Translations under genes and position numbers: made by a program
Assembly (NCBI GenBank): GCA_021813585.1
Contig: JAKAJV010000102.1
Coordinates: 1 to 64,000, forward strand
Reading direction: 5' to 3'
Length of the DNA stretch: 64,000 nucleotides
Source of the DNA: Bacteroidota bacterium
Lineage (GTDB): Bacteria > Bacteroidota > Ignavibacteria > Ignavibacteriales > Ignavibacteriaceae
Part shown: positions 7,461-47,395 of the stretch, piece by piece
Numbering within the stretch: position 1 is the first letter of the stretch
How the letters are laid out: every line of letters begins with the position of its first letter
Notes under the pieces: model-generated
Database searches by the model: none
Seen by the model: only the letters and a program-made list of their open reading frames with translations
Told to the model about the DNA's origin: nothing

Positions 7461-9317
7461 TTACTGCGGCAGCTCAGATTTTTTCTGCAAATATAAGCTA
7501 TACCAACCGGCAAACAACGGCTCGTATGGAAAGGCATAAATTCTTCCGCCGAAGCCGATCAGTCTAATCGTTACGGTATTAAATTGAAAAACCGGAACCG
7601 AATCATAAACGTCCTTATTAATTTCCACTCCGTATTTAAGTGCAAGATCAGCAACGTAGGATTTTAATTTTTTTTCGAATTCAATATTTCTCATAACATC
7701 CTTCAGCTCATCTTTAATTTTAACGAAAGAAGTGTCTTTGCTGTCTTCGGCATTTTGAATATCCAATAGCTTCAGCAAAGCAAAACCATCGCTAAGCTTA
7801 ACCGGACCGTAAACTACTCCGGCTTTCATATTCTTCACAATATTTTTGATCTCCCCGATAGTTCCCGTTTGAGTCGGCGGTAAATATCCAAGATTGCCTC
7901 CTCTTTCACGCAGCGAATCAATTATAGAATATTTTCCTGACACAGTTTCAAATGAAACGTGCTTATTCAATTCATCTAATGCTTTCTGAATTGTTTCCAG
8001 GCTGTCAACAAGAATTTCCTGCACATTAAATCTTTCCTGCGGAAACATGATCTTATGGTTCTTTGAATAAAATTCATAAGCATCAGCGTCATTGATCTTA
8101 ATTGAGTCTTGAATTCTTTTCATCAACCGCTGGGAAAGATAATAATCTTCCCAAAGACCCAGATCATTTCTCACCGCCGGTTCTCTTTCAAGATTTTGCC
8201 TCAGACCTTCGCGCGCCAACAGTTCGCTTTCAAGATAATTTTTCACATAATTATTGAAAGCCTGCGCAACGGTTTGATAATCCGTCGTATCGACTCTAAA
8301 GCCGTTGATCTTCAACTGATCTAAAAACTGTTTGACGGTTTCCGGATTCTTTTTGTACTTAATAAAGTTTGATCCCAACACTTCAGCACTAAGCGAATCT
8401 TCTATCCTGCTGAAATCTTCTTTGACTAAATAATAATATTTCGGCTTGTCCGCTTTCTTATAACTTTCCTGTCTTTCGTAAAGATACTTCTGCATCTGAT
8501 TTAAGATCTTCGTAAACAGCGCCCGGTCAACGCTTATCTGAAATTGCTGAAGAAAATTATTTAGATAATCGTCTTCCAAAACTGTTGCTTGTCTTTTCTC
8601 AACCGTCTGCTTAATCTTAAGCAAATTATCCGGAGTATTGAAGTAAGGCTGTTCAATAATTTTCCCCAGTTTAAAAATGTACCAACGGTAACCGGTATAA
8701 ATCGGCTTGGTAAACTGTCCGACTTTCAAACCGTAAACAGCATCCTCAACATTTTCATCAAGCGTTCCGAAGGTTATTGTTCCGGGAGTTTTTTGTCCTT
8801 CTGCTTCCGGTCTTCCGGCAAGTAGAGAATCGATCGGCGTTCCATTTTTCAGTTCGGAATACAATTTTTGAATTTCATTAATGTCCGTCGAATATAAATA
8901 CTTCATCACAAGAAGCTTCTTCATTCTTTCTTTTGCTTCGGAAATTTCTTTCTGTGTTACTTTAACTTTGCTTGAGATTTCTTTCTTGTACAAAGCATCT
9001 CTAACAAAAAGTCTCCCCATGTATGTCAGCATGTTTTGAATGAACTGTGTTGTGTCCAGCTTTAATTCTTTTGCCTTTTGTGCAAGAAGTTTTTCGGCGA
9101 GCAAAGTATAAAGATATTCCTTTTTAACTATCGCTGTATCGAGCGATTCCGTGGTGCGTGGATGCGGACTGAAATCAAATCGTTCGCGGAATTCTCGCGC
9201 CGTTATTTTGACGCCGCCCGCTTTTGCAACAACATCGCTGCCGGAAAAATTTTCTGTTTGACAAAAAACCTGTAAACTGAAAATCAAAAAAAATATAACA
9301 GCAATTATCGGCTTCAT
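7461..9317 (-). CDS. Parvulin-type peptidyl-prolyl isomerase (SurA/PpiC-like), periplasmic
   Basis: Signal peptide; two parvulin-like segments ('...TPGTITFGTLDENVEDAVYGLKVGQFTKPIYTGYRWYIFKLG'; 'ERGGNLGYLPPTQTGTIGEIKNIVKNMKAGVVYGPVKLSDGFALLKLLDI'). Confidence 0.85.
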   Translation of the reverse strand: MKPIIAVIFFLIFSLQVFCQTENFSGSDVVAKAGGVKITAREFRERFDFSPHPRTTESLDTAIVKKEYLYTLLAEKLLAQKAKELKLDTTQFIQNMLTYMGRLFVRDALYKKEISSKVKVTQKEISEAKERMKKLLVMKYLYSTDINEIQKLYSELKNGTPIDSLLAGRPEAEGQKTPGTITFGTLDENVEDAVYGLKVGQFTKPIYTGYRWYIFKLGKIIEQPYFNTPDNLLKIKQTVEKRQATVLEDDYLNNFLQQFQISVDRALFTKILNQMQKYLYERQESYKKADKPKYYYLVKEDFSRIEDSLSAEVLGSNFIKYKKNPETVKQFLDQLKINGFRVDTTDYQTVAQAFNNYVKNYLESELLAREGLRQNLEREPAVRNDLGLWEDYYLSQRLMKRIQDSIKINDADAYEFYSKNHKIMFPQERFNVQEILVDSLETIQKALDELNKHVSFETVSGKYSIIDSLRERGGNLGYLPPTQTGTIGEIKNIVKNMKAGVVYGPVKLSDGFALLKLLDIQNAEDSKDTSFVKIKDELKDVMRNIEFEKKLKSYVADLALKYGVEINKDVYDSVPVFQFNTVTIRLIGFGGRIYAFPYEPLFAGWYSLYLQKKSELPQ

Positions 9318-9319
9318 TA

Positions 9320-11545
9320 TTATTTCTTTAGTTCAAAAGATGTCTTCAAATAATCATCGGAATTTCTTCCGATCATCACGTCGTAAATTCCGGGCTCAAC
9401 AACTTTCTTCATATCAATATTGTAGAACGCAAGCATCTTCGGTTTGATCACGAACTTAACGATCTTTGATTCGCCGGGCTGCAAATAAATTCTCTTAAAT
9501 CCCTTCAGCTCTTTTACAGGAGGAGTTACATCGGCGTAATGATCATGCGTGTAAAGCTGAACAATTTCGGTTCCGCCGACGCTTCCGCTGTTTGTAACCT
9601 TTATCGAAGTGGTCAAAGAATCCTTTTCAGAAATATTTTTTTTGTCGATCGTTAAATCCGAATAAGAAAAATTTGTATAGCTCAATCCGTAACCGAATGG
9701 ATAAAGCGGAGTAACAGGACAATCGAGATATTTAGAAGTGTAATGATCGGTCGGAGACGGCGGTCTGCCGGTGTTCATGTGGTTGTAAAAAATCGGTATC
9801 TGTCCAACCGCCCGCGGGAACGTTGCGGTTAATTTTCCGGATGGATTGTAATCGCCGAACAAAACATCGGCAATTGCATTTCCGGTTTGATTTCCTAAAA
9901 ACCATGTTTCTAAAATTGCCGGGATGTTTTCAGATTCCCAATTTATTGTCAACGGTCTGCCGTTCATCAAAACTACAACTACCGGCGTTCCTGTTTTGTA
10001 TATTTCTTTTATAAGATCTTCTTGAACTCCGGGAATATCAATAAAAGCGCGGCTGGAGGCTTCTCCGCTCATCTCCCGCGATTCGCCTACGACTAAAACC
10101 GCAACATCGGATTCTTTGGCTGCGTTTACCGCTTCGTTAAATTCCGCTCGGCTTGAATCGAGGAAGTCGCAGCCTTTCACGTAATTTATTTTCGTCTCAG
10201 ACGGAATTTTATTTTCTATTCCATCAAGAACCGTTACAACATTTTTAGGAATTCCATCCGGCGCCCACGGACCAATCAAGTCCTCTTGATCATCTGCTAG
10301 CGGACCGATCAATGCAATTGAATGAATATCTTTTTTCAGCGGAAGAATATTTTTCTCGTTCTTCAAAAGCACAATTGATTCATCCGCAAGTCGACGTGCA
10401 ACTTTATTCCTCTCCTCCTGCGGCGGCAAATTTTTTCTGAAGAAAGGGGTATCAACATAAGGATGATCGAACAAGCCGAGTTCATATTTTAATCTAAGCA
10501 CTCTTCGTACGGAGCGGTCAATTAATTTTTCCGGAACGATTCGATTCTTAACTAAGCCTTCAAGATACGGCGCGTAAATATTCCCCATCACTGTATCGCC
10601 TGCAAGGTCAACATCAACTCCGGCAGTGATCCCTACTCTCGCGGCATCTGATTTATCCTTCGCAATTCCGTGATTAACAAGCTCGCCGATTGAATTGTAA
10701 TCGCTTATCACCACGCCTTTAAATTTCCACTCGTCTCTTAAAATTTTTGTTAAGGTAAAATAATTCCCGGATGCCGGCACGCCGTTCAAATCGTTGAATG
10801 CGCTCATGATCGATCCCGCACCGGCATTAACAGCCGCGTGAAAAGGCGGAAGATAAATTTCTCGCAGCGTTCTAACCGAAATATCAACGGTGTTATAATC
10901 TCTTCCGGCTTGAGCCGCGCCGTAAGCGACGTAGTGCTTTGCCGTTGCCGAAATTGATCCTTCATCGCTTAAAGATTTTCCTTGATAGCCTTTTACATAA
11001 GCCGCCGCCATTACGCTTCCAAGGTAAGGGTCTTCGCCCGCGCCTTCTACAATTCTTCCCCACCGCGGATCGCGTGCTATGTCAACCATCGGCGAAAATG
11101 TCCAGTTCAATCCGTCGGATGAAGCTTCCAGCGCTGCTATTCTTGCAGCCTTGGTTACTAGTGCCGGATCCCAACTGCACGACTGCGCGAGCGGAACGGG
11201 AAAGATAGTATGATATCCGTGAATTACATCCGCAGCAAAAGCTAATGGAATATGAAGACGCGATTGTTCGACAGCAATTTTTTGCAAGCTGTCTCTTACC
11301 TGCCGTCCCGGATTTCCCATCATTCCGAATTTACCTTCTCTGATCATTTCTCCAGTTTCGGAATTGACTTCAGTTTTTCTAACAAGCTGCCCGATCTTTT
11401 CTTCCAAAGTCATTTTGGAAAGAAGTTCGTCAACTTTCTTCTCGATAACCGGATCTTTTCTTAAATATGAATTCTGTTGAGCATAATTCTGAAAAGAAAA
11501 AAAACTAATTACTAAAAGCGTGAAGGAAAAAATTTTTATCCGCAT
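9320..11545 (-). CDS. bglX: Glycoside hydrolase family 3 (beta-glucosidase-like)
   Basis: 'KVDELLSKMTLEEKIGQL', 'DVIHGYHTIFPVPLAQSCSWDPAL', 'KGVVISDYNSIGEL', C-terminal fibronectin III-like domain; signal peptide. Confidence 0.93.
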   Translation of the reverse strand: MRIKIFSFTLLVISFFSFQNYAQQNSYLRKDPVIEKKVDELLSKMTLEEKIGQLVRKTEVNSETGEMIREGKFGMMGNPGRQVRDSLQKIAVEQSRLHIPLAFAADVIHGYHTIFPVPLAQSCSWDPALVTKAARIAALEASSDGLNWTFSPMVDIARDPRWGRIVEGAGEDPYLGSVMAAAYVKGYQGKSLSDEGSISATAKHYVAYGAAQAGRDYNTVDISVRTLREIYLPPFHAAVNAGAGSIMSAFNDLNGVPASGNYFTLTKILRDEWKFKGVVISDYNSIGELVNHGIAKDKSDAARVGITAGVDVDLAGDTVMGNIYAPYLEGLVKNRIVPEKLIDRSVRRVLRLKYELGLFDHPYVDTPFFRKNLPPQEERNKVARRLADESIVLLKNEKNILPLKKDIHSIALIGPLADDQEDLIGPWAPDGIPKNVVTVLDGIENKIPSETKINYVKGCDFLDSSRAEFNEAVNAAKESDVAVLVVGESREMSGEASSRAFIDIPGVQEDLIKEIYKTGTPVVVVLMNGRPLTINWESENIPAILETWFLGNQTGNAIADVLFGDYNPSGKLTATFPRAVGQIPIFYNHMNTGRPPSPTDHYTSKYLDCPVTPLYPFGYGLSYTNFSYSDLTIDKKNISEKDSLTTSIKVTNSGSVGGTEIVQLYTHDHYADVTPPVKELKGFKRIYLQPGESKIVKFVIKPKMLAFYNIDMKKVVEPGIYDVMIGRNSDDYLKTSFELKK

Positions 11546-13056
11546 TATTTCACCTTCTTGAATCCTAAAACTTTCAATCCTTTTTTAATGACCGGGTCGC
11601 GCATCATGTATTTCCAGATTAAACCCGATCTGAAATTTTCCAGCATTAAAACCAACGGACCTTCATCAATTCCAAGATCGTCTTTATCAAACCAATTGGC
11701 GGTCAAGTTAAAGGCATCGACAAAACCATACTCGCCCCAAATGCCTTTGTCTTTGTACTTATCATAAAAATTCATCAGAGTCGGAATTACAACCTCCGGC
11801 GCAAATACAATCGAGCTTCCAGCCGCATACGGCGCGATTGTTCCGTCGTCGAAATAATTGTACTGCGGACCGGAAGTTCCTCTGCCGGCATATCCAATAA
11901 ATTTCTTGTCGCCAAAATTATAACTGTCTCCAGGTCCGTCGCAAGCGCTTATTCCCCAGTTCAATGAGTCGTAGCCTTTCCACCCGTGCGGATTTTCAAT
12001 CGCGTACAATCTCTGCGTCAACGTTGCGCGTCTCGAATTTTCAAAATAATCAATTCCTTTCGCCAGCATATACTTGTCGGCAATCCCTCTTAAATCAATA
12101 AACAAGTTTGTAAATTGATGACCGAACAATGGAGGAAAAACTACATGAGCTAAACCTTTGTATGGTTCTTCCCACTTATAAGTTTTAGTCCATGTTTCAT
12201 ATCCTTTAGCTGCGTTTTCCATCCCATCGCCGGCAGCAATTACAAACATAATTTGAGCTTCGTTATAACCGCTCCAGCCGTCATTTGACATGCCGTGCTC
12301 AGGTTCCCAGCCCATGGCAATATCGTACGGAAATTTGCTGTCTCCCGGCAGAGTAAAAAACTTCCAGTCAACTTTTTCTAAAATGGCGTTAGCTTTCTTT
12401 CTGATCTCTTTTTCTATTTTTGAATTTTTGTTGAAGTACTGCCGCGAAAAAATTATTCCCGCCAAAAGCAAGCCTGTGTCGATGGATGAAAGCTCACAGT
12501 TCCAGTACCGCAAACCGGTTTTCATATCGAGGAAGTGATAATAAAATCCTTTGTAACCGGTTGAAACGGCATCGGGGCTTTGTTTGCTGTTCAGGAAAAA
12601 ATTTAAAGTGTTTAAAGTACGTTCAGCAGCTTCCTCTCTCTTAATCCAGCGGTGCTCTACGCCGACCGCATAAGCAGGCAAAGCAAAACCAACAGCCGCA
12701 ATACTTGCCGGCGAATCCTTTGTCGAGCGGTCTTTAACCAATCCGTTAGCACGATTAGATTCACCTATAAAATAAAGAAAAGTTCTATATTCGAGAGTAT
12801 CCAGGAATGTCGACTCTTCCGAGGTAAGTCTGTAATTATTCACGCACCTTACGCAAGCTATTCTCTTTGGAGTACCGGAATGATGGAATAGTGGAGTAAA
12901 TTGGTCAATTCCATTATTCCAATACTCCATTGTTCCAAGGACTGTGTAAGATGACTTATTAATTAAATTGTTTTCCTTTGGTTTATTACTTTGACAAAAG
13001 CTGCCAAACGCCTGCAAGAAGATTGCAGCGATAACTAATAAATATTTATTAAACAT
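11545..13056 (-). CDS. Secreted glucoamylase-like (PF10091-type / GH144-like) protein
   Basis: 'AMGWEPEHGMSNDGWSGYNEAQIMFVIA', 'NWGISACDGPG', 'IDEGPLVLMLENFRSGLIWKYMMRDP' signatures; TAATG stop/start overlap with the GH3 gene. Confidence 0.85.
   Translation of the reverse strand: MFNKYLLVIAAIFLQAFGSFCQSNKPKENNLINKSSYTVLGTMEYWNNGIDQFTPLFHHSGTPKRIACVRCVNNYRLTSEESTFLDTLEYRTFLYFIGESNRANGLVKDRSTKDSPASIAAVGFALPAYAVGVEHRWIKREEAAERTLNTLNFFLNSKQSPDAVSTGYKGFYYHFLDMKTGLRYWNCELSSIDTGLLLAGIIFSRQYFNKNSKIEKEIRKKANAILEKVDWKFFTLPGDSKFPYDIAMGWEPEHGMSNDGWSGYNEAQIMFVIAAGDGMENAAKGYETWTKTYKWEEPYKGLAHVVFPPLFGHQFTNLFIDLRGIADKYMLAKGIDYFENSRRATLTQRLYAIENPHGWKGYDSLNWGISACDGPGDSYNFGDKKFIGYAGRGTSGPQYNYFDDGTIAPYAAGSSIVFAPEVVIPTLMNFYDKYKDKGIWGEYGFVDAFNLTANWFDKDDLGIDEGPLVLMLENFRSGLIWKYMMRDPVIKKGLKVLGFKKVK
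12877..12936. repeat. Imperfect inverted 'GGAATRNTGGART...' repeat lying inside the GH144-like CDS
   Basis: GGAATGATGGAATAGTGGAGTAAATTGG ... AATTCCATTATTCCAATACTCCATTGTTCC; related copy at 13139-13204. Confidence 0.7.
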
Positions 13057-13222: not shown

Positions 13223-14251
13223 TTAAAATCCAACACTGACCGTGAACCTATTCACTTTAAGCAAGCGTCCGTAATCTGCCCAGGCATAATCAAAGCGCAG
13301 AGTATAGCCTTCTGCAAAGGAATAATTTACACCGGCGCCAAGTTCAAGTCCGCCTTCGGAATTAGGCAGGAAAAGATTCCTGTAGCCGCCTCTAATTGAA
13401 AAGTTCTTCATCAAAGTCAGCTCTGCGCCTGCGTTCATGCTTTCGTTGTTGTCGTTCGGATGAAGTGCATCAACAGCAAGCGTAATTTTATTATCGTCAT
13501 TAAATTTGTACGGATAAGAAACTCCGATCCGGAATAACGTCGGCAGCGGAAATAAATCAGTCCTTAATTCACCCGGCAGCTGATCGTTGCCGCCGTGCTT
13601 TGAAGGATCCTGATTGTAATCAATATACAAATCTCTTCCGCTGTAGTTTGCACGCGGCCCAAAATTTAATAAGCTCGCACCGATTGTAAGCCCGCCGGGC
13701 TCAACCTGATACTGAACGCCGAGATTAATTCCGAAGTCAATTAAGTTGTCGTGCCAAATAGATTCTTGAATATAATTTATCATGAAGCCGACGGAGACGC
13801 GATCGGTGAGCATTATACCATAACCAAATCCTAAAGCAAAGTCTTGAACAGAATAATACTCACCTGTTCCCAATGGTTGAGCAACTGTTCTTACAGCAAT
13901 GTCTCCCGAATTCATTGAAATGGCTTGAAGCGCAAATGTTCCAATGTTTTCTACCTTTACTCCAAGAGCGGCATAATTAAAATTAATTCCTGCCAGCCAT
14001 TCGGTATAAGTAAACTGCGCATCTGTCTGGGTTAATCTTCCCATGCTTGCCGGATTATAATACATTGCCGACGCTTCGCCGTAGAGAGCGGTACCTGCAC
14101 TGCCCATGCCGGAAGCCCTTGAGCCTTGATCTATCTTTAAGAACTGTGCGATAGTCGTTCCAACTTTGCTTTGGGCATTTGTCGTAACCTGGAAAGGAAA
14201 AATTACCGACAAAATTAATATAGTCTTAAGATTTAAAAATATTTTTTTCAT
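13223..14251 (-). CDS. PorV/PorQ family outer-membrane protein (FadL-like barrel)
   Basis: 'VGTTIAQFLKIDQGSRASGMGSAGTALYGEASAMYYNPASMGRL' N-terminal PorV-type motif; C-terminal aromatic residue. Confidence 0.85.
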   Translation of the reverse strand: MKKIFLNLKTILILSVIFPFQVTTNAQSKVGTTIAQFLKIDQGSRASGMGSAGTALYGEASAMYYNPASMGRLTQTDAQFTYTEWLAGINFNYAALGVKVENIGTFALQAISMNSGDIAVRTVAQPLGTGEYYSVQDFALGFGYGIMLTDRVSVGFMINYIQESIWHDNLIDFGINLGVQYQVEPGGLTIGASLLNFGPRANYSGRDLYIDYNQDPSKHGGNDQLPGELRTDLFPLPTLFRIGVSYPYKFNDDNKITLAVDALHPNDNNESMNAGAELTLMKNFSIRGGYRNLFLPNSEGGLELGAGVNYSFAEGYTLRFDYAWADYGRLLKVNRFTVSVGF

Positions 14252-14269
14252 ATTAAAATACCGTAAGTT

Positions 14270-17200
14270 TTATTTTACTATCGCAAATTTTCCTATATAG
14301 GTTCCAACTCCGGGTGCATCCACATGAAATATGTACCGCCCAGGCGCAACTGATAAATTATCTCTCGAACGCAAACCCCATGGTTCGAATCCTTGCAAGC
14401 CGTTGTGTTCAATTGTTTGTACCAGTTCGCCGTTTACAGTATAAATTCTGATGGTGCAAGTTTGCGGAAGCCCGCGGAACTCAATCCTTCTTTCACCGCG
14501 GCCAGAAACAGCAAACCTCTGCGGCTCAAAGCTTGCCTGACCGATGTAAGGATTTGGAACAACATACGCTTCTTTAAATTGCTGCTTTGCCTCCTGCTGA
14601 TCAAACTTCTGCTGCACGGTTGTAAATGTAAATGCATCCGAATTTGAATACGGAATTTTTAAATTCAAATTATAAACATCTCCGTCTGTCGGCGGCTGGA
14701 AAGTTCCGCCAGTTGCGGTTGTATCTACTTGAATTTCCCACGTTGGCAGCAGCTTTTGAGGCGCACTGTTAGCTGCCGTTAGGACTTCAATATAGTCTGT
14801 TGGTCTGGTAATAGTTCCGGACTGTTGAATATTTCTAAACCGGAATTTTAATTTGATATCGCCGGACGGATCCTTTGCGATTACTTTAAACTTCACACGC
14901 TGAGACGGCATTCCTATTCCGGCAACAGAAGTGTCCATTACCTGGCTTCCAAAAATTACCTGAAGATTATTGGGGAACCCACGTCTACGCAGCGTAATTG
15001 GGAATGAAGGCGCATAGACGGATTTTAATTTTAAGTTAGTTTTGCTGCCAGAAGCAAATCCAGTATTTGCAGAATCAATTGAAATTGTCGTCGGCGTAGT
15101 AACAACAGGTAAGATTCCATCTGCAACAGGACCAATTCCAAGTCCATCAAGATCGTAACCGTAACTGAATAAAGTATCATGAGCAGTTTCGTCAACAAGC
15201 GAATAGTAATTTGCACGCACCGAATCGCTCAGATTAAAGAATACTAATTTAAAAATGTGGTTATCCGGAACTAAATCAGAATTTAAAATTTTGATACTTA
15301 CATCTCCGACTCCTGAGCCCTCATTATGTTGAAGCTGAATTGCTTGCGCAGGCGTTAAACCAAGCGATGGCGCGTTTGGAGTTACTACTGCAACATTCTT
15401 TGGAAGAATAGTTCCGCCTCTAAGTGTTTGACTTACTGTGATTGGATTTTCAGATGGATATACTGATAATGAATCTATACCGGTATTATAAGCGCAAACT
15501 GCATAATAATAAGTTTGACCGTTTGTTACAGTTGTATCAGTAAAAGAGTGCGAGAGACCGGTCTCATCTCCAAGGTAGTAGGCAACTCCCTCAACTGTAA
15601 ATTTTGAGAACCCGGCAATGCCGTCTTTCAAATCAAATTGGGCAATTGGCTTGCCGTTGCCAATTGGGCCAGAACCCGTTGCTGTTGTTACAACCCTCGG
15701 ATCGAGGAATGTGGGATCGGTGCTGCGATAAACTTTATACCCTTCAAAATCATCAGTGCCGGTTATCGGGTTGATTGCCTGCTCAGCAGTATTATCCCAG
15801 GTTATTGTAATATACTTGTCTCCGGCGTAAGCGTGTACTGCAGGAAGCGGCGGCGGAACTGCAAACTTGTAATTGCCTTTATAAATTTGGGCAACCACTC
15901 TTATCGTAGTTTCCAGCTCTCTTAAATTTGCGCCCCAGCCGAGTGCCAGGCTAAATCTTTCTCTGTCGCCTGCTGGTAATATAAATGGACCTGATGCAAA
16001 TAAAAAGGCAATGTTATAATTCTGAACAAGTGGATTATCAAATCCCGAACCAGGTGTAGTGAAAAAGTCATAGAGCCGTTCAGGCCAATGATGTCCGTCA
16101 TCAAAAAATACAATGTTATCTACCGGACCGATACCATCTCCGGCTCTGATTCTATTAAACTTAAATCCGGTAAGACCAATCATATCCGATTCATCAATAT
16201 CTGTAATATCAAAATTAGGCTCGCCTTCGGTCGGAATGCCGTCGCCTTCGCCAACATCGTGAGTTCCGAAAACGCCGTCGGCGCCGGTATCGCAATATCT
16301 TGCAACCCAATTCATGTTTTCATCTCCAGTCCACCAAACACCTTCCTTATAAGCAGGTCTTTGAGTGATAGGACCATAGAAAGCTTCAAACTTGGCAATG
16401 TTATATTTTTCAGGATGATTCTGTATGTAGTTCATGATATTATTCTGTCCGACAATTTTTTCGCCCGGACCACTATGGCGGCTCTCGTCTGTTATTCCGT
16501 CATTATCATTATCTATCCCATCATACTGGTTGCCGGGGGTTTCAAGATATGAATAACCTAAATAGCCGGTAGGGCCTCTCATTCCAATTCCATGGTTCTC
16601 CCAGTTATAAACAATATTTATTCCGATATCCTTTGTGTAGAAAGCGTTGTTATCGTCGTTCGGAATTATGCCGTTGGGTGCAAATCCTTCGCCGCCTACG
16701 CCGGTATCATTATAAATACCGAAGATAATATTTTCATCGTAGTCGGTTGTGCTTTCGTTTGAAATATCATAATGTGAGAAGATTACGTTTTCCGATTGAA
16801 TATTCGACCACTGAAAATTTCTCTGCTCAACTCTTAAGCCCAATCCCTTTCTTGTATGATCTCTGCTGTCGGGATAAAAATCCCAAGCATCATAATATTG
16901 ATCGTCATAAACGTAATAAGTTTCCTCATCGGCTACCTGAGCTTTGCCGAAATATCCATCCCATGAGCCGGGCCATCCCGGGTCTACAGGGTCATCCATT
17001 TTATTAATCCAGTAATCAGGCCATGTGCGCGGGTCGTTGCTGATTGCCGGCGAACGACCTTTATTGATATCCGGGTTAGGCTGGAAATATCCGACCCATT
17101 TCCCTCCCCAGTTATAAGGAGGTCTTGGTTCAAAGCGCATAACTCTGTTTGTATGAAAAGGGCTTTGTCCTTGTCTTTCTCTGTAGCCTGTTTCCATAAT

Positions 17201-17530
17201 GTAGCCGGGCGTTCCGTTAAGCTGATTAATTTTTGCTAGAACGTAGGGAGTATATCCGTCGCTGTTATTTTGTCCCGAGCCTTTAGGAACTTCAATCGAG
17301 TGGAAAACAGAAACATCAACATTTATAGGATCCGGAGGGTAATCGCCGACCATCCCGTAATTATAATATACTGTCCTTATATTATTTGCATCGAGCGTTC
17401 CCTCGCGTTCTGCATCTGCCGTACCTCTCAAAGAATCCGGGACAACCGGCATAAGCTGCGCAAAGTTTTTGCTTGAGAACAATAATAGAATTACAAGAGA
17501 AAATAATTCTAATCGTAACAACTTTTTCAT
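14270..17530 (-). CDS. Large secreted protein (1086 aa) with FN3-like domain and 'VPNPYI' T9SS-like C-terminal domain
   Basis: 'DPGWPGSWDGYFGK', 'DGIDNDNDGITDES', 'YVVPNPYIGQASFEPQRF...GRYIFHVDAPGVGTYIGKFAIVK'; parallels the 50597-54100 protein. Confidence 0.8.
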   Translation of the reverse strand: MKKLLRLELFSLVILLLFSSKNFAQLMPVVPDSLRGTADAEREGTLDANNIRTVYYNYGMVGDYPPDPINVDVSVFHSIEVPKGSGQNNSDGYTPYVLAKINQLNGTPGYIMETGYRERQGQSPFHTNRVMRFEPRPPYNWGGKWVGYFQPNPDINKGRSPAISNDPRTWPDYWINKMDDPVDPGWPGSWDGYFGKAQVADEETYYVYDDQYYDAWDFYPDSRDHTRKGLGLRVEQRNFQWSNIQSENVIFSHYDISNESTTDYDENIIFGIYNDTGVGGEGFAPNGIIPNDDNNAFYTKDIGINIVYNWENHGIGMRGPTGYLGYSYLETPGNQYDGIDNDNDGITDESRHSGPGEKIVGQNNIMNYIQNHPEKYNIAKFEAFYGPITQRPAYKEGVWWTGDENMNWVARYCDTGADGVFGTHDVGEGDGIPTEGEPNFDITDIDESDMIGLTGFKFNRIRAGDGIGPVDNIVFFDDGHHWPERLYDFFTTPGSGFDNPLVQNYNIAFLFASGPFILPAGDRERFSLALGWGANLRELETTIRVVAQIYKGNYKFAVPPPLPAVHAYAGDKYITITWDNTAEQAINPITGTDDFEGYKVYRSTDPTFLDPRVVTTATGSGPIGNGKPIAQFDLKDGIAGFSKFTVEGVAYYLGDETGLSHSFTDTTVTNGQTYYYAVCAYNTGIDSLSVYPSENPITVSQTLRGGTILPKNVAVVTPNAPSLGLTPAQAIQLQHNEGSGVGDVSIKILNSDLVPDNHIFKLVFFNLSDSVRANYYSLVDETAHDTLFSYGYDLDGLGIGPVADGILPVVTTPTTISIDSANTGFASGSKTNLKLKSVYAPSFPITLRRRGFPNNLQVIFGSQVMDTSVAGIGMPSQRVKFKVIAKDPSGDIKLKFRFRNIQQSGTITRPTDYIEVLTAANSAPQKLLPTWEIQVDTTATGGTFQPPTDGDVYNLNLKIPYSNSDAFTFTTVQQKFDQQEAKQQFKEAYVVPNPYIGQASFEPQRFAVSGRGERRIEFRGLPQTCTIRIYTVNGELVQTIEHNGLQGFEPWGLRSRDNLSVAPGRYIFHVDAPGVGTYIGKFAIVK

Positions 17531-17565
17531 GTGAGTCGCTTGTATTAAATTTTTATTAAAATGTA

Positions 17566-20229
17566 CTATTTAGAATTAAACGAAATTCCAATTTCAATTC
17601 TCCTCGGCTCGTAAAACCTCGATGGATTTAAAAGCTGAGAGGCATCGGTGGCCGGAGTAAGCGAATAATCGGGGCTTCCCGTGCCGGCAAATACGAAGCC
17701 GTTAACCATGTCTTCATTAAACAAATTATACACGCGCGCAAACACGCTGAAGTTGAGAAAACCTAACTGGAAAAACTTTTCGGCGCGCAGGTCTACCAAA
17801 ACATAGCTGGGCTTTCTTCCGGAGTTTGTTTGCAAGTTTGCCGTAAAGCTTGCCGGACCAATTTGCGGAGTGTATGGCTCGCCGCTTCCGTATCTAACAA
17901 TTGCACTAAGCGATAGCTGATCTTGCACATAATAAATTACCTGCAGATTCAAAGTATGTCTTTGGTCCCAGTTGAACGGAATATCGCGCGGACGGGGGTC
18001 CTGACCGGCAGCAGCTCTATTTGCGGTCTCTCGTGGATCGCTTGAATTTCCGTTTGCGAATTGTAATGTATAATCAAGGCTTGCGCTAATCGGACCAATG
18101 CTGCGCTGATCTAATGAAAGAGTAATTCCGTAAACGTTGCCAAAGTCCACGTTGGTTAATCTTGCATATTCAGCCGCGGTGTAAGTGCTGACGAACTCTG
18201 TTCCGAGAAGATCGCGAATGTCTTTGCTGAAGAATGTAAGCTGGGTCCCGAGGTTTTCAGTTATCGCCTGCTTCAATCCAACTTCGTATTGAACAGTGAA
18301 CTGCGGGTTAAGATCGGGGTTGCCCAGAACGCCGTAATCAATTCCGCCAGCCTGCAATTGATCGAGCACAAGATAATTGGAATTGTTATAAAGATCGCCT
18401 AAGCCCGGCATCTGGTAAAAATGCCCGTAAGAAAAATAAATTGATGCGGTAGAAGTTAGTGGAAAGCTTAAGCCGACTCTTGGGGCCAATGCATATTTTA
18501 TGGTCGTCTTTTTTAAATAAGAAAGGGGAGCGCCTTTAATTGAATTAGCCGGGTTTTGAAGGTCGCTCGGCACAAAAGCGTTGGCATCGAATACTTGAAG
18601 TCTTAATCCGCCGCGGACAACCAGATCGCCGAGCTCAACACGGTCCTGCAGATAAGCAACACCTTGCCTCGGATAATAAGTTTCTACTTTTGGATCTTTA
18701 GGATTGGTGCTGTAATGCGGCTGAAGAGTTTGAACGCCGTTTACATTCGTCTCGCTTAAAAATCCAGGACTTCCGAAAGAAATTTTTGAGACTTCGCCTT
18801 CCAGTCCTGCTTCAATCAAATTTTCTCTGTTTGCTTGCCAGCTGTAATCGAGCTTAACTATGCCGTCGTTTGTCTTTTGAATAAATCTTGTCAGGTCAAC
18901 GCCCTGAATTATTGCGCCGTATTCGTAGCTGGCATCGCTCTGCGGTATTCCATCCTGAAGGTATCTTGGATCGTAAACACTTGAGTACTTATAATTCCTA
19001 TAATCAAAATAATTGTATCTGAAATTAAGCTTGTAAAACATCTTATCGCTAATTGTGTGGGTAACATCCAAACCTTGAGTGAGCGAAAAAGTTGTTTGAG
19101 TCGGAATTCCTTCGGGAAGAAATCTGTATGCGTTATTATATTGAGTCTCATCGAAGCTGTTAAAAATAGCTACGTAGCTTAATTGTAATTTAGGTATTGA
19201 ATGGTTTGCAATCTTAAACTGTCCGCTCCACTCATGATGAGTCTGCATCGGAACTAATTTATTGTCACCGGTCGGGTTGAAAATTTTTTTCTCAAAATCG
19301 CTGGAGTCAGTCGGTAGAAATCTGTTTATACCGAACAGGTAACCGTCGTTTAAGTATCTTCTGCCGCTAACAAAAAAAGTAGTGTTGTTTAATATCGCCG
19401 GTCCGCTTATTGTTAATTGATAATTTTGAATTTGCGCAGGCCTGTAAGTGTTATCAAACGGATAGCGAATAACATCGGTTGTATAATAATCTCCAATATA
19501 CACTTCGCCGGAGTACTGAAAATTTTCTGTCCCGGTTCGCAGCACAGCATTAACCACGCCGCTCATAGCCTGACCGTACTTTGCATCGAACGTTCCGCTG
19601 ATTACCTGGACTTCCTGCAGAATTGATTTATCAAGCTGCAAAGTCGATGAGTTATCATATGGGTTATTAACCGTTACACCGTCAACCTGATACTGAACCT
19701 CGCCAATTCTTCCGCCTCTAAAATGCCCGTCAACCACGCCAGCCTGAAGATTTACAATATCGGTTAAGCTTTGGACGGGAAGATTCTGCATTGCTTCCCG
19801 GCTAACAGAAACGACAGAGCTTGTCTGATTGAATTCAACAAGCGGCTTTTGCGCAACAACAGTAACTGTTTGACCTTGAATTGCCTGCTCGCTTAAAACA
19901 ACATTAATTGTTGTTGTCTGGTCCGGTATAATCTTGATGTCTTTTACAATTTTAGATTGATATCCGATATAGCGATACTCTACGGAGTAGGTACCGGTTC
20001 TGAGATTAAGAATAGAATAATAACCGTTCAGATCGCCGGTAGTACCCATATTGGTGCCTTGCACTAAAATATTGGCTCCAATAAGCGGCTCGCCTTTGGG
20101 GTCGGTAATTCTTCCGGCAAGCTTTCCGCTCGTTTGTGCAAAGACCGGATAACCTGATAAAAAAATTATAAATGCAGCCGGCAAAAATTTAGAAAAGATT
20201 ATTCTTCTTGTGCGCTCCTTGATTAACAT
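17566..20229 (-). CDS. TonB-dependent receptor with N-terminal carboxypeptidase-regulatory-like domain
   Basis: 'GKLAGRITDPKGEPLIGANILVQGTNMGTTGDLNGYYSI', plug 'LPVQSLTDIVNLQAGVVDGHFRGGRIGEVQYQVDGV', C-terminal barrel 'RRIEIGISFNSK'. Confidence 0.92.
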   Translation of the reverse strand: MLIKERTRRIIFSKFLPAAFIIFLSGYPVFAQTSGKLAGRITDPKGEPLIGANILVQGTNMGTTGDLNGYYSILNLRTGTYSVEYRYIGYQSKIVKDIKIIPDQTTTINVVLSEQAIQGQTVTVVAQKPLVEFNQTSSVVSVSREAMQNLPVQSLTDIVNLQAGVVDGHFRGGRIGEVQYQVDGVTVNNPYDNSSTLQLDKSILQEVQVISGTFDAKYGQAMSGVVNAVLRTGTENFQYSGEVYIGDYYTTDVIRYPFDNTYRPAQIQNYQLTISGPAILNNTTFFVSGRRYLNDGYLFGINRFLPTDSSDFEKKIFNPTGDNKLVPMQTHHEWSGQFKIANHSIPKLQLSYVAIFNSFDETQYNNAYRFLPEGIPTQTTFSLTQGLDVTHTISDKMFYKLNFRYNYFDYRNYKYSSVYDPRYLQDGIPQSDASYEYGAIIQGVDLTRFIQKTNDGIVKLDYSWQANRENLIEAGLEGEVSKISFGSPGFLSETNVNGVQTLQPHYSTNPKDPKVETYYPRQGVAYLQDRVELGDLVVRGGLRLQVFDANAFVPSDLQNPANSIKGAPLSYLKKTTIKYALAPRVGLSFPLTSTASIYFSYGHFYQMPGLGDLYNNSNYLVLDQLQAGGIDYGVLGNPDLNPQFTVQYEVGLKQAITENLGTQLTFFSKDIRDLLGTEFVSTYTAAEYARLTNVDFGNVYGITLSLDQRSIGPISASLDYTLQFANGNSSDPRETANRAAAGQDPRPRDIPFNWDQRHTLNLQVIYYVQDQLSLSAIVRYGSGEPYTPQIGPASFTANLQTNSGRKPSYVLVDLRAEKFFQLGFLNFSVFARVYNLFNEDMVNGFVFAGTGSPDYSLTPATDASQLLNPSRFYEPRRIEIGISFNSK

Positions 20230-20422: not shown

Positions 20423-22348
20423 TTACTTCAATAAGATCATCTTTGAAGTTTTACTGAGATAACTTCCGCCCTGGTTTGCTTTCAAAGTCATTCGATAAAA
20501 ATACACACCGGATGCAAGCTTATTGGCATTGAATTCAAAAACGTGCGTGCCGGCTGTTTGATGATACAAGTTCAAACTGGAAACCAGCTGACCCAGCGTA
20601 TTATAAATTGAAAGAGTTACTTCTCCAGTTTTGGGAATTGAATAACTTATTGTAGTAGAAGGATTGAATGGATTAGGATAATTTCCAAACAGAACTAGAT
20701 TTTCCGGAACAGTTTTGGCAGAATTATTCTTTACATCAGTCAGGACATTAGGATCCATGTACATCCATGCAGTTGGACCGGTGCCTTTATTTTCTTTAAA
20801 GAACCATGTCCTTGTACCATAATTGTTGGCAGGGTTATCGAAAACATCCGCGTCTAATACATCAACACCGCCGAATAATAAATGATCTCCCAAACCATTT
20901 GCATAGCCAAGCTTGGTAAGATCAATCTTCAATTCAACTGTGTATCCGGTATCTATATCTGTATTGTCATTAACCGTACCGTGGACCTGCATTCCTAATG
21001 TGGCAATTCCTTGCTTAACAAGCGTATCGAGGTCCTCATCAGCATTTGGATTTCCACTAGAATCAAAATCTGCTAACAAGTTTAAGAACTGCATTACATG
21101 ATCGGAATTAACGGAATCTCTTAATCCCAATACGAAACGAACCCCATCTTTCTGATCTTGATTGGTAGCGCCGCCTTCAATTAACTGATCCGCAACATTA
21201 GCACCGAGATATAAGTAGTTTCCTTTGAAGAACATTTTAACAGTAGCATCTGCCGGGTCTAATACCTGTGGTGGAGGATCGGTTGGCGGATTTGATGTAC
21301 TTACTTCGTACCATGCACTCATACTCTTTCCAAGACCAGTGTAGCTGTTTACCGTAGCAAGATCGCCGTATTTAATTTTAAAAGTTGCAGCGCCGTTCCA
21401 AACTGCTTCATTTAAATTTCCGTCAATGGCAGGGTCTGTATCCTTGGCTCCATTAGGAATAACAAGATCCGGAGGTATTTCCGGCGCTGGCCCTGAATTA
21501 ACAGTTACATCAGGGCGTATATATATTCTTGCAGCGTTCTCGTTTTGGTCGCTCCAGGGATGCTGCCACCAGGCTTTACCAACAGCTCTTTTTGCTGGAT
21601 CAGGTTGCCAATACCAATCAACATCACAAATTTGAATATTAGTCCCGACAACATCGCCGTTAGTTTGCGTTGTATTGTACCCTAACGAATCGAGATTTAT
21701 CTGCATTTCAAAAACGTATCCTGTATCCGGTGAGCTGTCGTCATTAGTCGTTCCTTGCACGGTATAACCCATATTCCAGCCCATAGCTTTAATAGCTGAA
21801 TCGGTTAACTGATCTTGATATGGACCCATATAACCGTATCTTGGACCAGCGCCTTTTCCTCTGCCGCCGGTATAACTCGATGAAGTATCTGTGAACAAAA
21901 AACTAGGAAAAATTTCTTTGCGCCCTACTGGTCTAGTCCTTACATCTTTAACATTCATCAAAACGCCATCCCACCAAATAGGACCAGGCCAATCGTGACC
22001 GCCAATTGAAGAATCGGGAACTATAAAAGCAATGTAAAGTTGATTATTATGGGATAGGAACTTTACTGTGGCTCTAACTGTATCGAAGTAACCGTCTGGA
22101 TTTGGATAGCCATCTGTATTCCACCCGCTAGTTGGCAAGCCTGAGCTTGCGCCATAAGTAATATGAATCGAATCGGCTTTTGCCCAGGATGCTTCATTAA
22201 GCTTTCCATCCAAAACAATTGGCTCCGTAGTTTCTCTTGCCCAAACCGCATCCTGCCTTGTCGGCGGAATGCTCTGGGCATTTACTGCAGGCTTAAAGAC
22301 GAATAATAGCAGTAAAGAATAAAAAGTATACTTTATATACTTGGACAT
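20423..22348 (-). CDS. Secreted protein with two CBM9-like sugar-binding domains and T9SS type A sorting domain
   Basis: 'PIVLDGKLNEASWAKADSI' and 'DPAIDGNLNEAVWNGAATF'; C-terminal 'GNYPNPFNPSTTISYSIPKTGEVTLSIYNTLGQ'. Confidence 0.85.
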   Translation of the reverse strand: MSKYIKYTFYSLLLLFVFKPAVNAQSIPPTRQDAVWARETTEPIVLDGKLNEASWAKADSIHITYGASSGLPTSGWNTDGYPNPDGYFDTVRATVKFLSHNNQLYIAFIVPDSSIGGHDWPGPIWWDGVLMNVKDVRTRPVGRKEIFPSFLFTDTSSSYTGGRGKGAGPRYGYMGPYQDQLTDSAIKAMGWNMGYTVQGTTNDDSSPDTGYVFEMQINLDSLGYNTTQTNGDVVGTNIQICDVDWYWQPDPAKRAVGKAWWQHPWSDQNENAARIYIRPDVTVNSGPAPEIPPDLVIPNGAKDTDPAIDGNLNEAVWNGAATFKIKYGDLATVNSYTGLGKSMSAWYEVSTSNPPTDPPPQVLDPADATVKMFFKGNYLYLGANVADQLIEGGATNQDQKDGVRFVLGLRDSVNSDHVMQFLNLLADFDSSGNPNADEDLDTLVKQGIATLGMQVHGTVNDNTDIDTGYTVELKIDLTKLGYANGLGDHLLFGGVDVLDADVFDNPANNYGTRTWFFKENKGTGPTAWMYMDPNVLTDVKNNSAKTVPENLVLFGNYPNPFNPSTTISYSIPKTGEVTLSIYNTLGQLVSSLNLYHQTAGTHVFEFNANKLASGVYFYRMTLKANQGGSYLSKTSKMILLK

Positions 22349-22426: not shown

Positions 22427-23443
22427 TCAGCTGTATCTGCAGCCGCAAGAACCTCCTATAACAAGTTCAATCGGAAGGACTTCAAAATGTGCTTCGGAGT
22501 TTCTTTTCTTTTTTGTAATCCTATTTAAAAGAAATTTAACGGCTTTAATTCCTAGTTCGGTAATCGGTACATGAATCGTCGTTAATCTAGGCAGAAGAAA
22601 CTGGCTTAGGTAGATATCGTCAAAGCCGGCTATAGCAACATCGTTGGGAATTTTAAACCCGAGCTCTTTAGCCGCTTCGTATGCACCTACAGCCATCATA
22701 TCGTTAGCTGCAAAAATTGCTTCAGGCCGAATTTCCTGATTCATCAAAGTAGTGAATCCAATTACACCGGACTCAACGTCGAAATTTCCGTTAATAATTA
22801 ATGAACTGTCTTTTGCTATTTTATACTTTTTTAATGCGCTTAAATATCCTGAAAATCTTTCCTCCGCATCGCAGTTCCCTTTCGGTCCGTTTATAATTCC
22901 TATCCTTTTGTAGTTATGCACTTTTATAAAATGCTCTACTACTTCGTAAGCTCCTTTGTAGTTATCAACTTTTATCTGGTCGATTTTACTAAATTCGCCG
23001 CATGTGTTAACAAGAATAACCGGGGTTTTGCTTTTTTGAATTATTTCAGAAACTTCGTTTTGCATTTGCGGGGCCATTAAAATTACACCGTCAACTCTTC
23101 CGCTGCCCATAAGCTCAATAAGAGTTTCAATTATATTCCTCTGGCTGTGGGAGCTAGAAATTAACACGTGCCAATTGTTTTTGTAAGCTTCTTCGTCTAT
23201 GCTGTGGATAAAGTCCATAAAGAACTCACCGACAAGGTCCGGCAATACAACGCCAATAGTTTCTGTAGACTGCTTCGAGAGGCTTCGGGCAATAGGATTG
23301 GGGATATAATTTAATTCTTCGACTATTTTTAATATTTTTTCTTTTGTTTTTGGTTTAACAAGCTCACCCCCATTCAATGCTCTAGATACGGTAGCAATAG
23401 AAACGCCAGCTTTAAGAGCTACTTTGTGAATATCAATTTTCAT
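22427..23443 (-). CDS. LacI-family transcriptional regulator (module A)
   Basis: 'IDIHKVALKAGVSIATVSRALNGGELVKPKTKEKILKIVEELNYIPNPIARSL', periplasmic-binding-like effector domain. Confidence 0.95.
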   Translation of the reverse strand: MKIDIHKVALKAGVSIATVSRALNGGELVKPKTKEKILKIVEELNYIPNPIARSLSKQSTETIGVVLPDLVGEFFMDFIHSIDEEAYKNNWHVLISSSHSQRNIIETLIELMGSGRVDGVILMAPQMQNEVSEIIQKSKTPVILVNTCGEFSKIDQIKVDNYKGAYEVVEHFIKVHNYKRIGIINGPKGNCDAEERFSGYLSALKKYKIAKDSSLIINGNFDVESGVIGFTTLMNQEIRPEAIFAANDMMAVGAYEAAKELGFKIPNDVAIAGFDDIYLSQFLLPRLTTIHVPITELGIKAVKFLLNRITKKKRNSEAHFEVLPIELVIGGSCGCRYS

Positions 23444-23639: not shown

Positions 23640-24449
23640 CTATCCTTTAACTCCGCCAAGCATTATTCCTTTTATATAATACTTCTGAAGCGAAAGGAAG
23701 ACAAGAACCACAGGAATAATTGTAACAACCGAGCCGGCCATCATTAACTCGGTATCCTGATTGTGCTCACCCATCAGATTAGCAAGTGCTACCGGCAAGG
23801 TATACATTGAGTCGTTAGTCATAACAATCAACGGCCAAAGGAAATCATTCCACGTTCCCATGAATGTAAATATTGCCAGTGTAATCAGAATCGGTTTTGC
23901 CAAAGGCAGAATTAGAGTAAAGTATATTTGAAAATCATTTGCCCCGTCCATTTTTGCAGCCTCTATCAGGCTATCCGGTATTGCAAGCAAATATTGTCTT
24001 ATCAGAAATATTCCGAAAACAGATGCCATTCCTGGTATAACGATAGCCATGTATGTGTTTATTAGCCCCATATATTTCAACATTAAAAACAGCGGCAGCA
24101 TTGTTACCTGAGCAGGGACTATCATAAAACTGAGAAGTAATTTGAATAGACTTTTCTCTCCTGAAAACCTGTACTTTGCGAAAGCATATCCAGCCATTGA
24201 ATTTATGAATAAAGAAACAATTGTAACGCCTACAGACACTATTACGCTGTTAAAAAAATATTTAACAATGTTCAGTCGAGAGAATAAATTTTTATACTGC
24301 ACCAAAGTAAATTTATCGGGAAGAAATCTAGGCGGATAAACATTGGATTGCCCGTTTGCCATTAACGAAGATGAAAGCATCCATACTATAGGCATAAGGC
24401 ATAGAACCGCTGCACCGATTAGGATTATATATAGGAATGCTTTTTTCAT
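23640..24449 (-). CDS. Carbohydrate ABC transporter permease (MalG-like)
   Basis: EAA loop 'SLIEAAKMDGANDFQIYFTLILPLAKP'; multiple TM segments. Confidence 0.93.
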   Translation of the reverse strand: MKKAFLYIILIGAAVLCLMPIVWMLSSSLMANGQSNVYPPRFLPDKFTLVQYKNLFSRLNIVKYFFNSVIVSVGVTIVSLFINSMAGYAFAKYRFSGEKSLFKLLLSFMIVPAQVTMLPLFLMLKYMGLINTYMAIVIPGMASVFGIFLIRQYLLAIPDSLIEAAKMDGANDFQIYFTLILPLAKPILITLAIFTFMGTWNDFLWPLIVMTNDSMYTLPVALANLMGEHNQDTELMMAGSVVTIIPVVLVFLSLQKYYIKGIMLGGVKG

Positions 24450-25330
24450 ACCGCAGTTTCTTTCTGTAACTTTAGCTGAATAAGACTAATTAAAAGAATT
24501 ATGAAGAACAGAATGAAAGCCAATGCGGCTGAATATCCCATATTCCACCAGCGGAATCCCTCTTGATACATATATAAAACAATGCTTAGCGTGCTGTTTA
24601 ACGGACCTCCCTGCGTCATTACGTAAGGCTCTGCAAACAACTGGAAATAACCGATCATTGTAATGATGCTAACAAACAAGGTTGTAGGCGCCAGCATTGG
24701 CAGCGTGATGTTCTTGAATTTGTTCCATCCGGATGCGCCTTCTATATTTGCGGCCTCATACAAATCTTCGGGAATATTTTGCAGGCCGGCAATAAATATT
24801 ATCATATTATATCCGAAATTTTTCCACACCGCCATTAGTATTATTGCCGGCATGGCCCAGTGAGGATTACCTAGCCAATCAATTGGATGGACTCCTATAA
24901 ACCCCAGCAGGTAGTTTAAAATTCCAAACCGCGGATGGTAAATGAAGCGCCACAAAATAGAGACCGCCACAAGTGTAGTTACAACCGGCATAAAATATAC
25001 AAGCCTAAATATTCCTTTAAATTTTACCAGCTTAGAGCTTAACAATAGCGCCGCAGCTAACGATACAGCAATTGAAAGCGGACCGCCTGCAATTACAAAG
25101 TAGAATGTATTTTTTAACGACTGCCAAAAAAGAGGGTCTTTAAAAATTTCTATGTAGTTTTGCAGGCCCACAAACCTGGCATAACTAAAATTGCCTAACG
25201 AATAAATATCAAAATCCGTAAAGCTCATCAGCAAAGCTGCGGCTACCGGTATTAAAAAGAATATAAAAATTGCCAGCAATGCCGGGGTAAGAAATAGATA
25301 CGCTGCCGATATTTTATTCTGATGTTTCAA
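24446..25330 (-). CDS. Carbohydrate ABC transporter permease (MalF/UgpA-like)
   Basis: EAA loop 'DLYEAANIEGASGWNKFKNITLPMLAP'; 4-nt overlap with the next permease. Confidence 0.93.
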   Translation of the reverse strand: MKHQNKISAAYLFLTPALLAIFIFFLIPVAAALLMSFTDFDIYSLGNFSYARFVGLQNYIEIFKDPLFWQSLKNTFYFVIAGGPLSIAVSLAAALLLSSKLVKFKGIFRLVYFMPVVTTLVAVSILWRFIYHPRFGILNYLLGFIGVHPIDWLGNPHWAMPAIILMAVWKNFGYNMIIFIAGLQNIPEDLYEAANIEGASGWNKFKNITLPMLAPTTLFVSIITMIGYFQLFAEPYVMTQGGPLNSTLSIVLYMYQEGFRWWNMGYSAALAFILFFIILLISLIQLKLQKETAV

Positions 25331-25389
25331 CTATTTTAAAAATTTTAATTTATTAGACTTTAACTCAAATAATTTAATAAGTACTATAT

Positions 25390-26700
25390 TCATTTCCTGC
25401 TTAATATCCATCTCCTCTTGGCAAGTATGATATCTGCGTCTCTGTCAAGCAGCTTCAATGCTTCATCGGGACTCATCATTCCTCGTGCAGCAAATTCGGC
25501 ATACTGTTGAACTTTGCCGGAAACAATATGTTCCCATTCCGGAACCTTAGGAGTGGGTATTACATTTTGAAGCTGCTCATAAAATGCTTTAAGAAATTTA
25601 TTGTTGGTTAAAAGAGTATCATGCCAGGCATCATCCACCGCAGGCAGATCCGAAGATAACTTGAAGAACCGTAATTGAGAAGATCGCTCGGTTAAAAACT
25701 CAATCAATTTCCAGGCTTCAGGCTTGTGCTTTGAAGCCTTAAACATAACCAGGCTGGAACCGCCTGCCAATGATTCACCCGGGTACTGATTGCCGTTATA
25801 TGCCGGCAGAGGTGCAGTCATCCAAGAGTTCTGAAGCGAATCGGGTAATCTGTTTTTAAATTCGGTTACATTCCAAGGCCCGGTTATGTACATCGCAAAA
25901 AATCCGGTAGCAAAGGCCTGGAAAAGATTGGAAACCTGGGTCATATCAACCGGAGCTAACTTTTCTTTATAAAATTTAATTAAGAACTTGAACGCCTCGG
26001 CAAATTTCGGATCGCTGAAATTTCCGTATGAATTATTATCCTTTAGAAGAGATGCGCCGGCCTGCAGCCCGAAAATAATAAACGGCGCCCATTCATTTGT
26101 AGGAATAAAAAAAGCATACTTATCTTTACTACCGTACATTTTTTTTATCTTTAAAGAAACATCGTATAATTGCTGCCAGGTTTTAGGCGGCAAAGTATAG
26201 CCTGCTTTGCTTAAAATATCAGTCCTGTAAAATAATACTCTCGTATCCACATACCATGGAATCCCGAAAACCTTACCGTCTATAATGTTTGTCTGCCAGA
26301 TGCCGGGGAAAAATCTTTTCTCATCTACTTTACTGGAAGACTTAATCCATTTATCCAGGTCCTCAAGAGAGTTAAGAGCTACAAACTCAGGTATCCATGT
26401 ATTACCCAGTTGAACTAAATCCGGAGTAGTCTCGCTTGCGTATGCGGTAATTAATTTTTCATGCGCCGCCGTCCATGGAATAGCCTGGACTTTTACCTTG
26501 ATGCCGGGATTAAGCTTTTCAAATTCATCGGTTAATTTTTGAACGTGCTCGGCTTCCGCACCGAACGCCCAGAAATCAATTTGAACTTTTCCAGAGCCGC
26601 TTTTACAGCTTAGCGAAGTAATTCCAAAGAGAATAATAAAAATAAACCTTGCAAGCAAGGTAAGGATTATCTTAACAGTATCATCTTTCCGGAATACCAT
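25390..26700 (-). CDS. ABC transporter extracellular sugar-binding protein
   Basis: 'IDFWAFGAEAEHVQKLTDEFEKLNPGIKVKVQAIPWTAAHEKLITAYASETTPDLVQLGNTWIPEF'; probable lipoprotein signal; annotated start may be too far upstream. Confidence 0.92.
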   Translation of the reverse strand: MVFRKDDTVKIILTLLARFIFIILFGITSLSCKSGSGKVQIDFWAFGAEAEHVQKLTDEFEKLNPGIKVKVQAIPWTAAHEKLITAYASETTPDLVQLGNTWIPEFVALNSLEDLDKWIKSSSKVDEKRFFPGIWQTNIIDGKVFGIPWYVDTRVLFYRTDILSKAGYTLPPKTWQQLYDVSLKIKKMYGSKDKYAFFIPTNEWAPFIIFGLQAGASLLKDNNSYGNFSDPKFAEAFKFLIKFYKEKLAPVDMTQVSNLFQAFATGFFAMYITGPWNVTEFKNRLPDSLQNSWMTAPLPAYNGNQYPGESLAGGSSLVMFKASKHKPEAWKLIEFLTERSSQLRFFKLSSDLPAVDDAWHDTLLTNNKFLKAFYEQLQNVIPTPKVPEWEHIVSGKVQQYAEFAARGMMSPDEALKLLDRDADIILAKRRWILSRK

Positions 26701-47273: not shown

Positions 47274-47310
47274 TTTACTATTACGATACTTGTCGTCTAC
47301 AAGTTTATGT

Positions 47311-47395
47311 TCCCTAACCCTCACTCCCGTCCTCTCTCCCGAAGGGAGAGAGGAGGTTAGAACCCTCTCCCTTTGGGAGAGGGCAGGGTAAGGGC
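47311..47395. repeat. Intergenic double-hairpin repeat (CCTCTCTCCC-GAA-GGGAGAGAGG and CCCTCTCCC-TTT-GGGAGAGGG)
   Basis: 10-bp stem (47331-47353) and 9-bp stem (47363-47383) read directly. Confidence 0.8.

Follow-up and report, generated by a model that had tools for sequence, protein, structure and literature searches.

A recurrent cassette of TonB-dependent receptor, sorting-domain protein and PorV-like barrel in glycan loci of an Ignavibacteriaceae bacterium

In a 64,000-nucleotide stretch of DNA from a Bacteroidota bacterium of the family Ignavibacteriaceae (assembly GCA_021813585.1, contig JAKAJV010000102.1, positions 1 to 64,000; hereafter the window), two cassettes on the minus strand share one gene order: a TonB-dependent receptor (TBDR), a protein of about 1,100 residues that we named BIG, and a PorV/PorQ-family barrel, with glycan-related genes following. 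We consider it likely that the cassette is an outer-membrane unit for glycan capture and import that works without SusD, in which BIG is exported by the type IX secretion system (T9SS) and held by its own PorV-like barrel. A sequence-only reading of the window had described the triplet as a locus-dedicated secretion or surface-assembly cassette. Its coordinates and lengths (887-aa receptor, 1086-aa protein, PorV-like protein) were exact, the order recurs at 49542-56884 as it had said, and its proposal fits the results below, supported by the lack of a SusD match, the separate clade of core PorVs and the conserved linkage.

Results

In cassette A, the TBDR (17566-20229, 887 aa) contained a signal peptide, a CarboxypepD_reg domain, a plug and a beta-barrel (Pfam PF00593, 1.4e-31; PF13620; PF07715). 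BIG A (14270-17530, 1086 aa) consisted of a Sec signal peptide, a mostly-beta body with an FnIII-like middle and a C-terminal Ig-like T9SS sorting domain (CTD) at about residues 985-1086. The barrel (13223-14251, 342 aa) is a candidate for a dedicated shuttle or anchor. Cassette B was composed of a TBDR (54113-56884, 923 aa), a BIG (50597-54100, 1167 aa) with a CTD of the same subclass (152 bits) and a barrel (49542-50585, 347 aa); the two BIGs were 33% identical. The TIGR04056 (SusC/RagA) scores of the two TBDRs, 73 and 84 bits, lay below the cut-off of 368. Both barrels exceeded the NF033709 (PorV/PorQ family) cut-off of 90, with 191 bits for A and 179 bits for B, whereas they scored only 65-67 bits (A, 67) on the core PorV model NF033710, which has a cut-off of 250, and also fell far below the cut-off of the core PorQ model. 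The cassette A barrel was not a PorP/SprF protein by TIGR03519 (22.7 bits; cut-off 90.55). Pfam and NCBIfam scans of BIG yielded no Pfam family above cut-off, and BIG A had no Pfam match at all. Residues 335-455, approximately, of BIG A formed a strongly conserved acidic stretch (DGIDNDxDG...DDVGxDG...GEGDG...DESDQIGLT) that resembles Ca2+-binding sites.

Searches with the PorV-like protein and BIG of cassette A, followed by reading of the retrieved neighborhoods, revealed 15 cassettes in the strict order TBDR-BIG-PorV in this genome: the two of the window, two each on contigs C19 and C83, and one each on C142, C122, C25, C36, C1, C95, C20, C73 and C13. On C25 the TBDR was represented by its end alone, at the contig edge. 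Two further cassettes were rearranged: on C99 (L016) the BIG stood apart from a TBDR-PorV pair, and on C19 (L020:14660-18859) the PorV preceded the TBDR with no BIG between them. Four cassettes (L019, L020, L021 and L023) had shorter BIGs of 609-763 aa that retained the sorting domain and appeared to be without much of the conserved N-terminal body. The C83 cassettes (L017/L018) were closely similar tandem copies separated by a histidine kinase, and the BIG of the first continued, with the residues EQQYLDRF, past the point where the sorting domain usually ends.

We then scanned 84,980 species genomes with BIG and took the best 80 loci, which included Ignavibacteria, Calditrichota, KSB1, Eisenbacteria, Krumholzibacteriota, Latescibacterota, Gemmatimonadota, Rhodothermota, Neomarinimicrobiota, WOR-3 and others, although the phylum labels of some metagenome-assembled genomes among them may be wrong. 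The order was complete in all 73 of these loci that were not cut by contig ends. So as not to rely on the best BIG A matches, 40 further loci were collected through class and phylum searches, a few of which may duplicate records among the 80; 39 were complete, and in the remaining one the TBDR lay about 1.8 kb farther upstream. Combined, 112 of 113 untruncated loci, out of 120 BIG loci from other genomes, had the complete order, with loci found via BIG and neighbors assigned by domain coordinates. The 15 copies in the genome and this conservation indicate that the linkage is not due to chance, and the linkage that the sequence-only reading had proposed to look for in other genomes extends across many families and several phyla.

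No SusD model matched the large open reading frames scanned within the window. PF07980 and PF14322 gave zero matches in all 4.54 Mb of the genome, which is 99.95% complete, while a Bacteroides control was positive; two Pfam models with a working control thus rule out a SusD hidden in the genome. The AlphaFold2 model of BIG A (pLDDT 87, pTM 0.80) was mostly beta, its best structural matches were strings of Ig/FnIII domains and PorZ (5m11), and no SusD was among the 50 best PDB matches, so that BIG is not a disguised SusD. A Foldseek match of BIG to dextran dextrinase 9ju0 was set aside because a TM-score of about 0.2 is too weak.

The earlier claim of a SusD-free cassette therefore stood for the window, and for the genome as well, but the wider group is not free of SusD: a SusCDE starch operon has been described in Melioribacter roseus (PMC3534657), and BIG and SusD occurred together in 64 of the 297 genomes of a phylum sample. 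In a class sample, BIG was present in 189/197 genomes and SusD in 46/197, mostly in one or two copies; three genomes of one family (f25) had 4-8 SusD and no BIG. In the phylum sample, BIG was found in 16/97 genomes with at least four SusD, in 48/54 with one to three and in 82/146 with none. Strict mutual exclusion, which holds in family f25, breaks down across the phylum (odds ratio 0.57, p = 0.02). These counts suggest that the BIG and SusD systems tend to replace each other, yet can coexist.

SprA was found in the genome, as was exactly one core PorV (257 bits), located beside two PorU copies. The latter, on contig C47, were near-complete sortase paralogues in tandem (L024:9338-13312 and 13550-17533; 986 and 968 bits). 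All 30 genomes examined in the order had one core PorV each, from 16-67 PorV-like candidates per genome at first look. In a tree of 105 rows, 24 core PorVs formed a single clade with 100/100 support and a stem length of 1.68 changes per site, and none of 77 cassette PorVs fell inside it. This separation, with its long stem, is what the sequence-only reading had considered for locus-linked copies, and it rules out that the locus PorVs are random duplicates of core PorV. The cassette PorVs clustered largely by locus type and not by organism, and the module A copy grouped with module-A-type copies from several phyla. Eight TonB_C places above the cut-off indicated that TonB proteins are present; several TonB paralogues may be divided among the many receptors.

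The PorV-like protein was predicted with confidence (pLDDT 90) to be a barrel, and its closest PDB structures were those of PorV in the T9SS translocon. The cassette A barrel matched 8gl6 (8gl6_F, with a bound RemA CTD) at a TM-score of 0.70 and 6h3i at 0.67, compared with 0.50-0.57 for FadL channels. PorV lies within the FadL superfamily, the PorV-like model also matches FadL/TodX channels, and finding a porin among glycan genes would not be unusual; the barrels could on these grounds be FadL-type channels for oligosaccharides or small products with no role in BIG secretion. We regard this as very unlikely, as the best matches in both sequence and fold are to PorV, NF033709 is exceeded, a sorting-domain protein adjoins the barrel in all loci examined (loci found via BIG), and the CTD co-diverges with the PorV (below).

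BIG carries the features of a T9SS substrate, a Sec-type signal peptide (judged by eye) and a CTD. A lipobox-like pattern, sought with a simple pattern and not SignalP, occurred in 3 of 76 BIGs and was convincing in none, which does not mark BIG as a lipoprotein. The CTD did not reach the cut-off for type A (TIGR04183/PF18962), which neighboring enzymes do match, nor that for type B: PF13585 gave 15.9 bits for BIG B against a cut-off of 27 and nothing for BIG A, and TIGR04131 gave no match. We built a profile from the last 105 or so residues of 14 of the 15 BIGs of the genome. All 15 scored 93-152 bits on it compared with 53-70 on the type A profile (BIG A, 141 and 53), values raised by construction, since 14 of the 15 had gone into the profile. 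The domain was detected in 78 of 79 foreign BIGs, none of which was in the profile, and other sorting-domain proteins of the loci scored about 35 bits or less. The BIG CTD is a distinct Ig-like subclass of sorting domain that can be told apart from the type A domain of the neighboring enzymes. The nearest known domains were the CTDs of PorZ (5m11) and PorU (6za2), with faint profile similarity.

To compare the divergence of the three proteins, we correlated their distances. For 14 of the genome's cassettes, the correlation between TBDR, BIG and PorV distances was about r = 0.95 (Mantel p = 0.0001). In 49 foreign triads, the BIG body followed the TBDR given the PorV (partial r 0.77) and not the PorV given the TBDR (-0.05), while the CTD followed the PorV given the BIG body (0.36). 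Contact of the BIG body with the receptor and of the CTD with the barrel would be expected to produce such a pattern; linked inheritance and rate differences can mimic part of it. The same values bear on another arrangement, in which BIG and barrel would be a cognate T9SS substrate and shuttle, like SprB and SprF, serving for the display of an adhesin or binding protein, the TBDR being a co-regulated neighbor with no tie to BIG. In the known SprB/SprF pair, too, the shuttle gene immediately follows that of its substrate (PMC12618676), and the mostly-beta, Ig/FnIII-like BIG resembles surface adhesins. Nevertheless, the TBDR was directly upstream in 39/40 class and phylum loci and in 75/75 other loci uncut upstream, and the BIG body co-diverged with the receptor and not with the barrel. 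We therefore judge simple adhesin display to be unlikely.

The genes around the cassettes, all on the minus strand in the window, point to glycan use. In module A, upstream of the TBDR, were a CBM9-like protein (20423-22348; PF06452) with a type A sorting domain (PF18962), a LacI-family regulator (22427-23443) and a sugar ATP-binding cassette (ABC) importer of two permeases and a solute-binding protein (23640-26700). A PF10091 glycoside hydrolase (GH; 11545-13056, 6.9e-67) lay directly downstream of the cassette, followed by a GH3 enzyme (9320-11545), and a GH94 phosphorylase was located at 31264-33654; the Pfam assignments of the module also included a GH2 and more than one PF10091 enzyme. 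PF10091 is the family of GH144 endo-beta-1,2-glucanases. Together these genes point to a beta-glucan, and the ligand of module A is probably a beta-1,2-linked glucan. In module B, a GH53 endo-beta-1,4-galactanase with a type A sorting domain (45057-47324; PF07745, 5.4e-115), a GH2 enzyme (39876-42368), and galactose-1-phosphate uridylyltransferase and galactokinase (58624-60856) indicate beta-1,4-galactan.

Other copies had GH9 (C122, C25), GH13 (C36), GH38 (C73) or rhamnosidase-like (C19) neighbors, and among the cassette loci are ones for starch, cellulose, galactan, mannan and a beta-glucan. Elsewhere, the upstream neighbor (n = 47) carried PF18962 in 37 loci and CBM9 in 18, the upstream gene of cassette A being of the same kind, and the next downstream gene (n = 45) carried PF10091 in 16 and a GH94 domain in 14. 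Genes for SurA-like/parvulin peptidyl-prolyl isomerases were observed near three cassettes (window 7461-9317 and 56881-58611; L009:6020-7573); they may serve the barrels or BIG as chaperones tied to the locus.

Discussion

Based on these results, we propose that the TBDR would act as the importer. BIG, made with a Sec signal peptide, would leave the cell through the only SprA translocon, directed there by its special sorting domain. The cassette barrel would receive the BIG CTD from SprA in place of the core PorV, which would serve the type A enzymes. At the cell surface, the body of BIG may sit with the receptor as a binding subunit or lid. The CTDs of PorZ and PorU remain uncleaved, bound to PorQ and PorV, respectively (PMC10202324); in the same manner, the barrel probably keeps BIG docked, membrane-anchored and uncut by PorU. 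With one cassette per glycan locus, each locus would have an importer, a surface protein and a shuttle that match one another.

The cassette is most probably SusC/SusD-like in purpose and SprB/SprF- or PorZ/PorQ-like in assembly, while by the tests run it is a member of none of these. Like SusC/SusD, it places a TBDR with an N-terminal carboxypeptidase-regulatory domain and one surface protein in each glycan locus, alongside GH genes and a regulatory gene. Unlike SusC/SusD, it has no SusD, its partner protein is of T9SS type (signal peptide and CTD) and not a lipoprotein, its receptor scores below the SusC/RagA cut-off, and a PorV-family barrel is its constant third member. Type B substrates of Flavobacterium johnsoniae depend on a shuttle whose gene usually lies immediately downstream (PMC12618676). 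The cassettes share with such type B CTD and PorP/SprF pairs (SprB/SprF) the dedicated shuttle directly downstream, several pairs per genome and a separate class of sorting domain, but differ in having a PorV/PorQ-family shuttle, an Ig-like CTD nearer to type A and PorZ, a TBDR upstream, and glycan use instead of gliding. PorZ-PorQ and PorU-PorV of the attachment complex likewise have an uncleaved Ig-like CTD that stays on a PorV/PorQ barrel, and their CTDs weakly resemble that of BIG; those, however, are housekeeping parts of the secretion machine, whereas the cassettes are 15 locus-bound pairs with a TBDR. Superfamily and fold are common to the cassette PorVs and the core T9SS PorV; the latter occurs once per genome beside PorU, while the former belong to a separate clade far below the 250-bit cut-off.

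Several observations weigh against this model of glycan capture. No recognizable carbohydrate-binding domain was present in BIG. The CTD is type A-like, and that core PorV passes it over is an assumption. Whole-operon duplication by itself would also yield r = 0.95, and the partial correlation between CTD and PorV is modest. SusD is not strictly exclusive, given that 48/54 genomes with one to three SusD also carry BIG. In addition, no GH was found alongside the C83 and C95 cassettes, and the Rhodothermus marinus copy has peptidoglycan-related neighbors: it adjoins a peptidoglycan-recognition protein, and its BIG is annotated 'hypothetical protein'. In the cultured strain R. marinus DSM 4252 the three genes lie on pRMAR01 as RMAR_RS14120 (TBDR), RMAR_RS14115 (BIG) and RMAR_RS14110 (PorV-like). 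The C83, C95 and R. marinus copies would suit a unit that takes up large nutrients in general (glycans, peptides, muropeptides, cofactors), with the glycan link true of some copies only; in some species SusCD pairs, too, handle peptides and other ligands. We consider this broader role possible though doubtful, since most copies examined adjoin GH genes, carbohydrate-binding module proteins or sugar ABC importers; it would alter the ligand and not the mechanism, and overlaps with the glycan-capture model.

A further step, which we offer tentatively and hold to be somewhat short of an even chance, is a stable three-part importer of TBDR, BIG and PorV paralogue, in which the shuttle is the permanent anchor of an uncleaved T9SS substrate. 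Such an importer would amount to a second, SusD-independent mode of surface glycan capture. It would be widespread in the Fibrobacterota-Chlorobiota-Bacteroidota (FCB) group, would use a third T9SS class of sorting domain and shuttle peculiar to it, and could predate SusCD. A description of the cassette was not found in the open literature searched, a search that most subscription papers and preprints lay outside.

In Bacteroidota and their relatives, glycan uptake is interpreted almost wholly via SusC/SusD. As BIG is present in 189 of 197 class genomes and SusD in 46, finders of polysaccharide utilization loci that depend on SusCD pairs would overlook the majority of these glycan loci in this class. 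Across a broad span of taxa the three genes are almost always linked, and simple predictions follow from the model. The cassettes also provide a large natural set of PorV-type CTD/shuttle pairs, which makes testable the hypothesis that cognate PorV-like barrels shield CTDs from PorU cleavage and determine the destination of T9SS cargo (PMC10202324).

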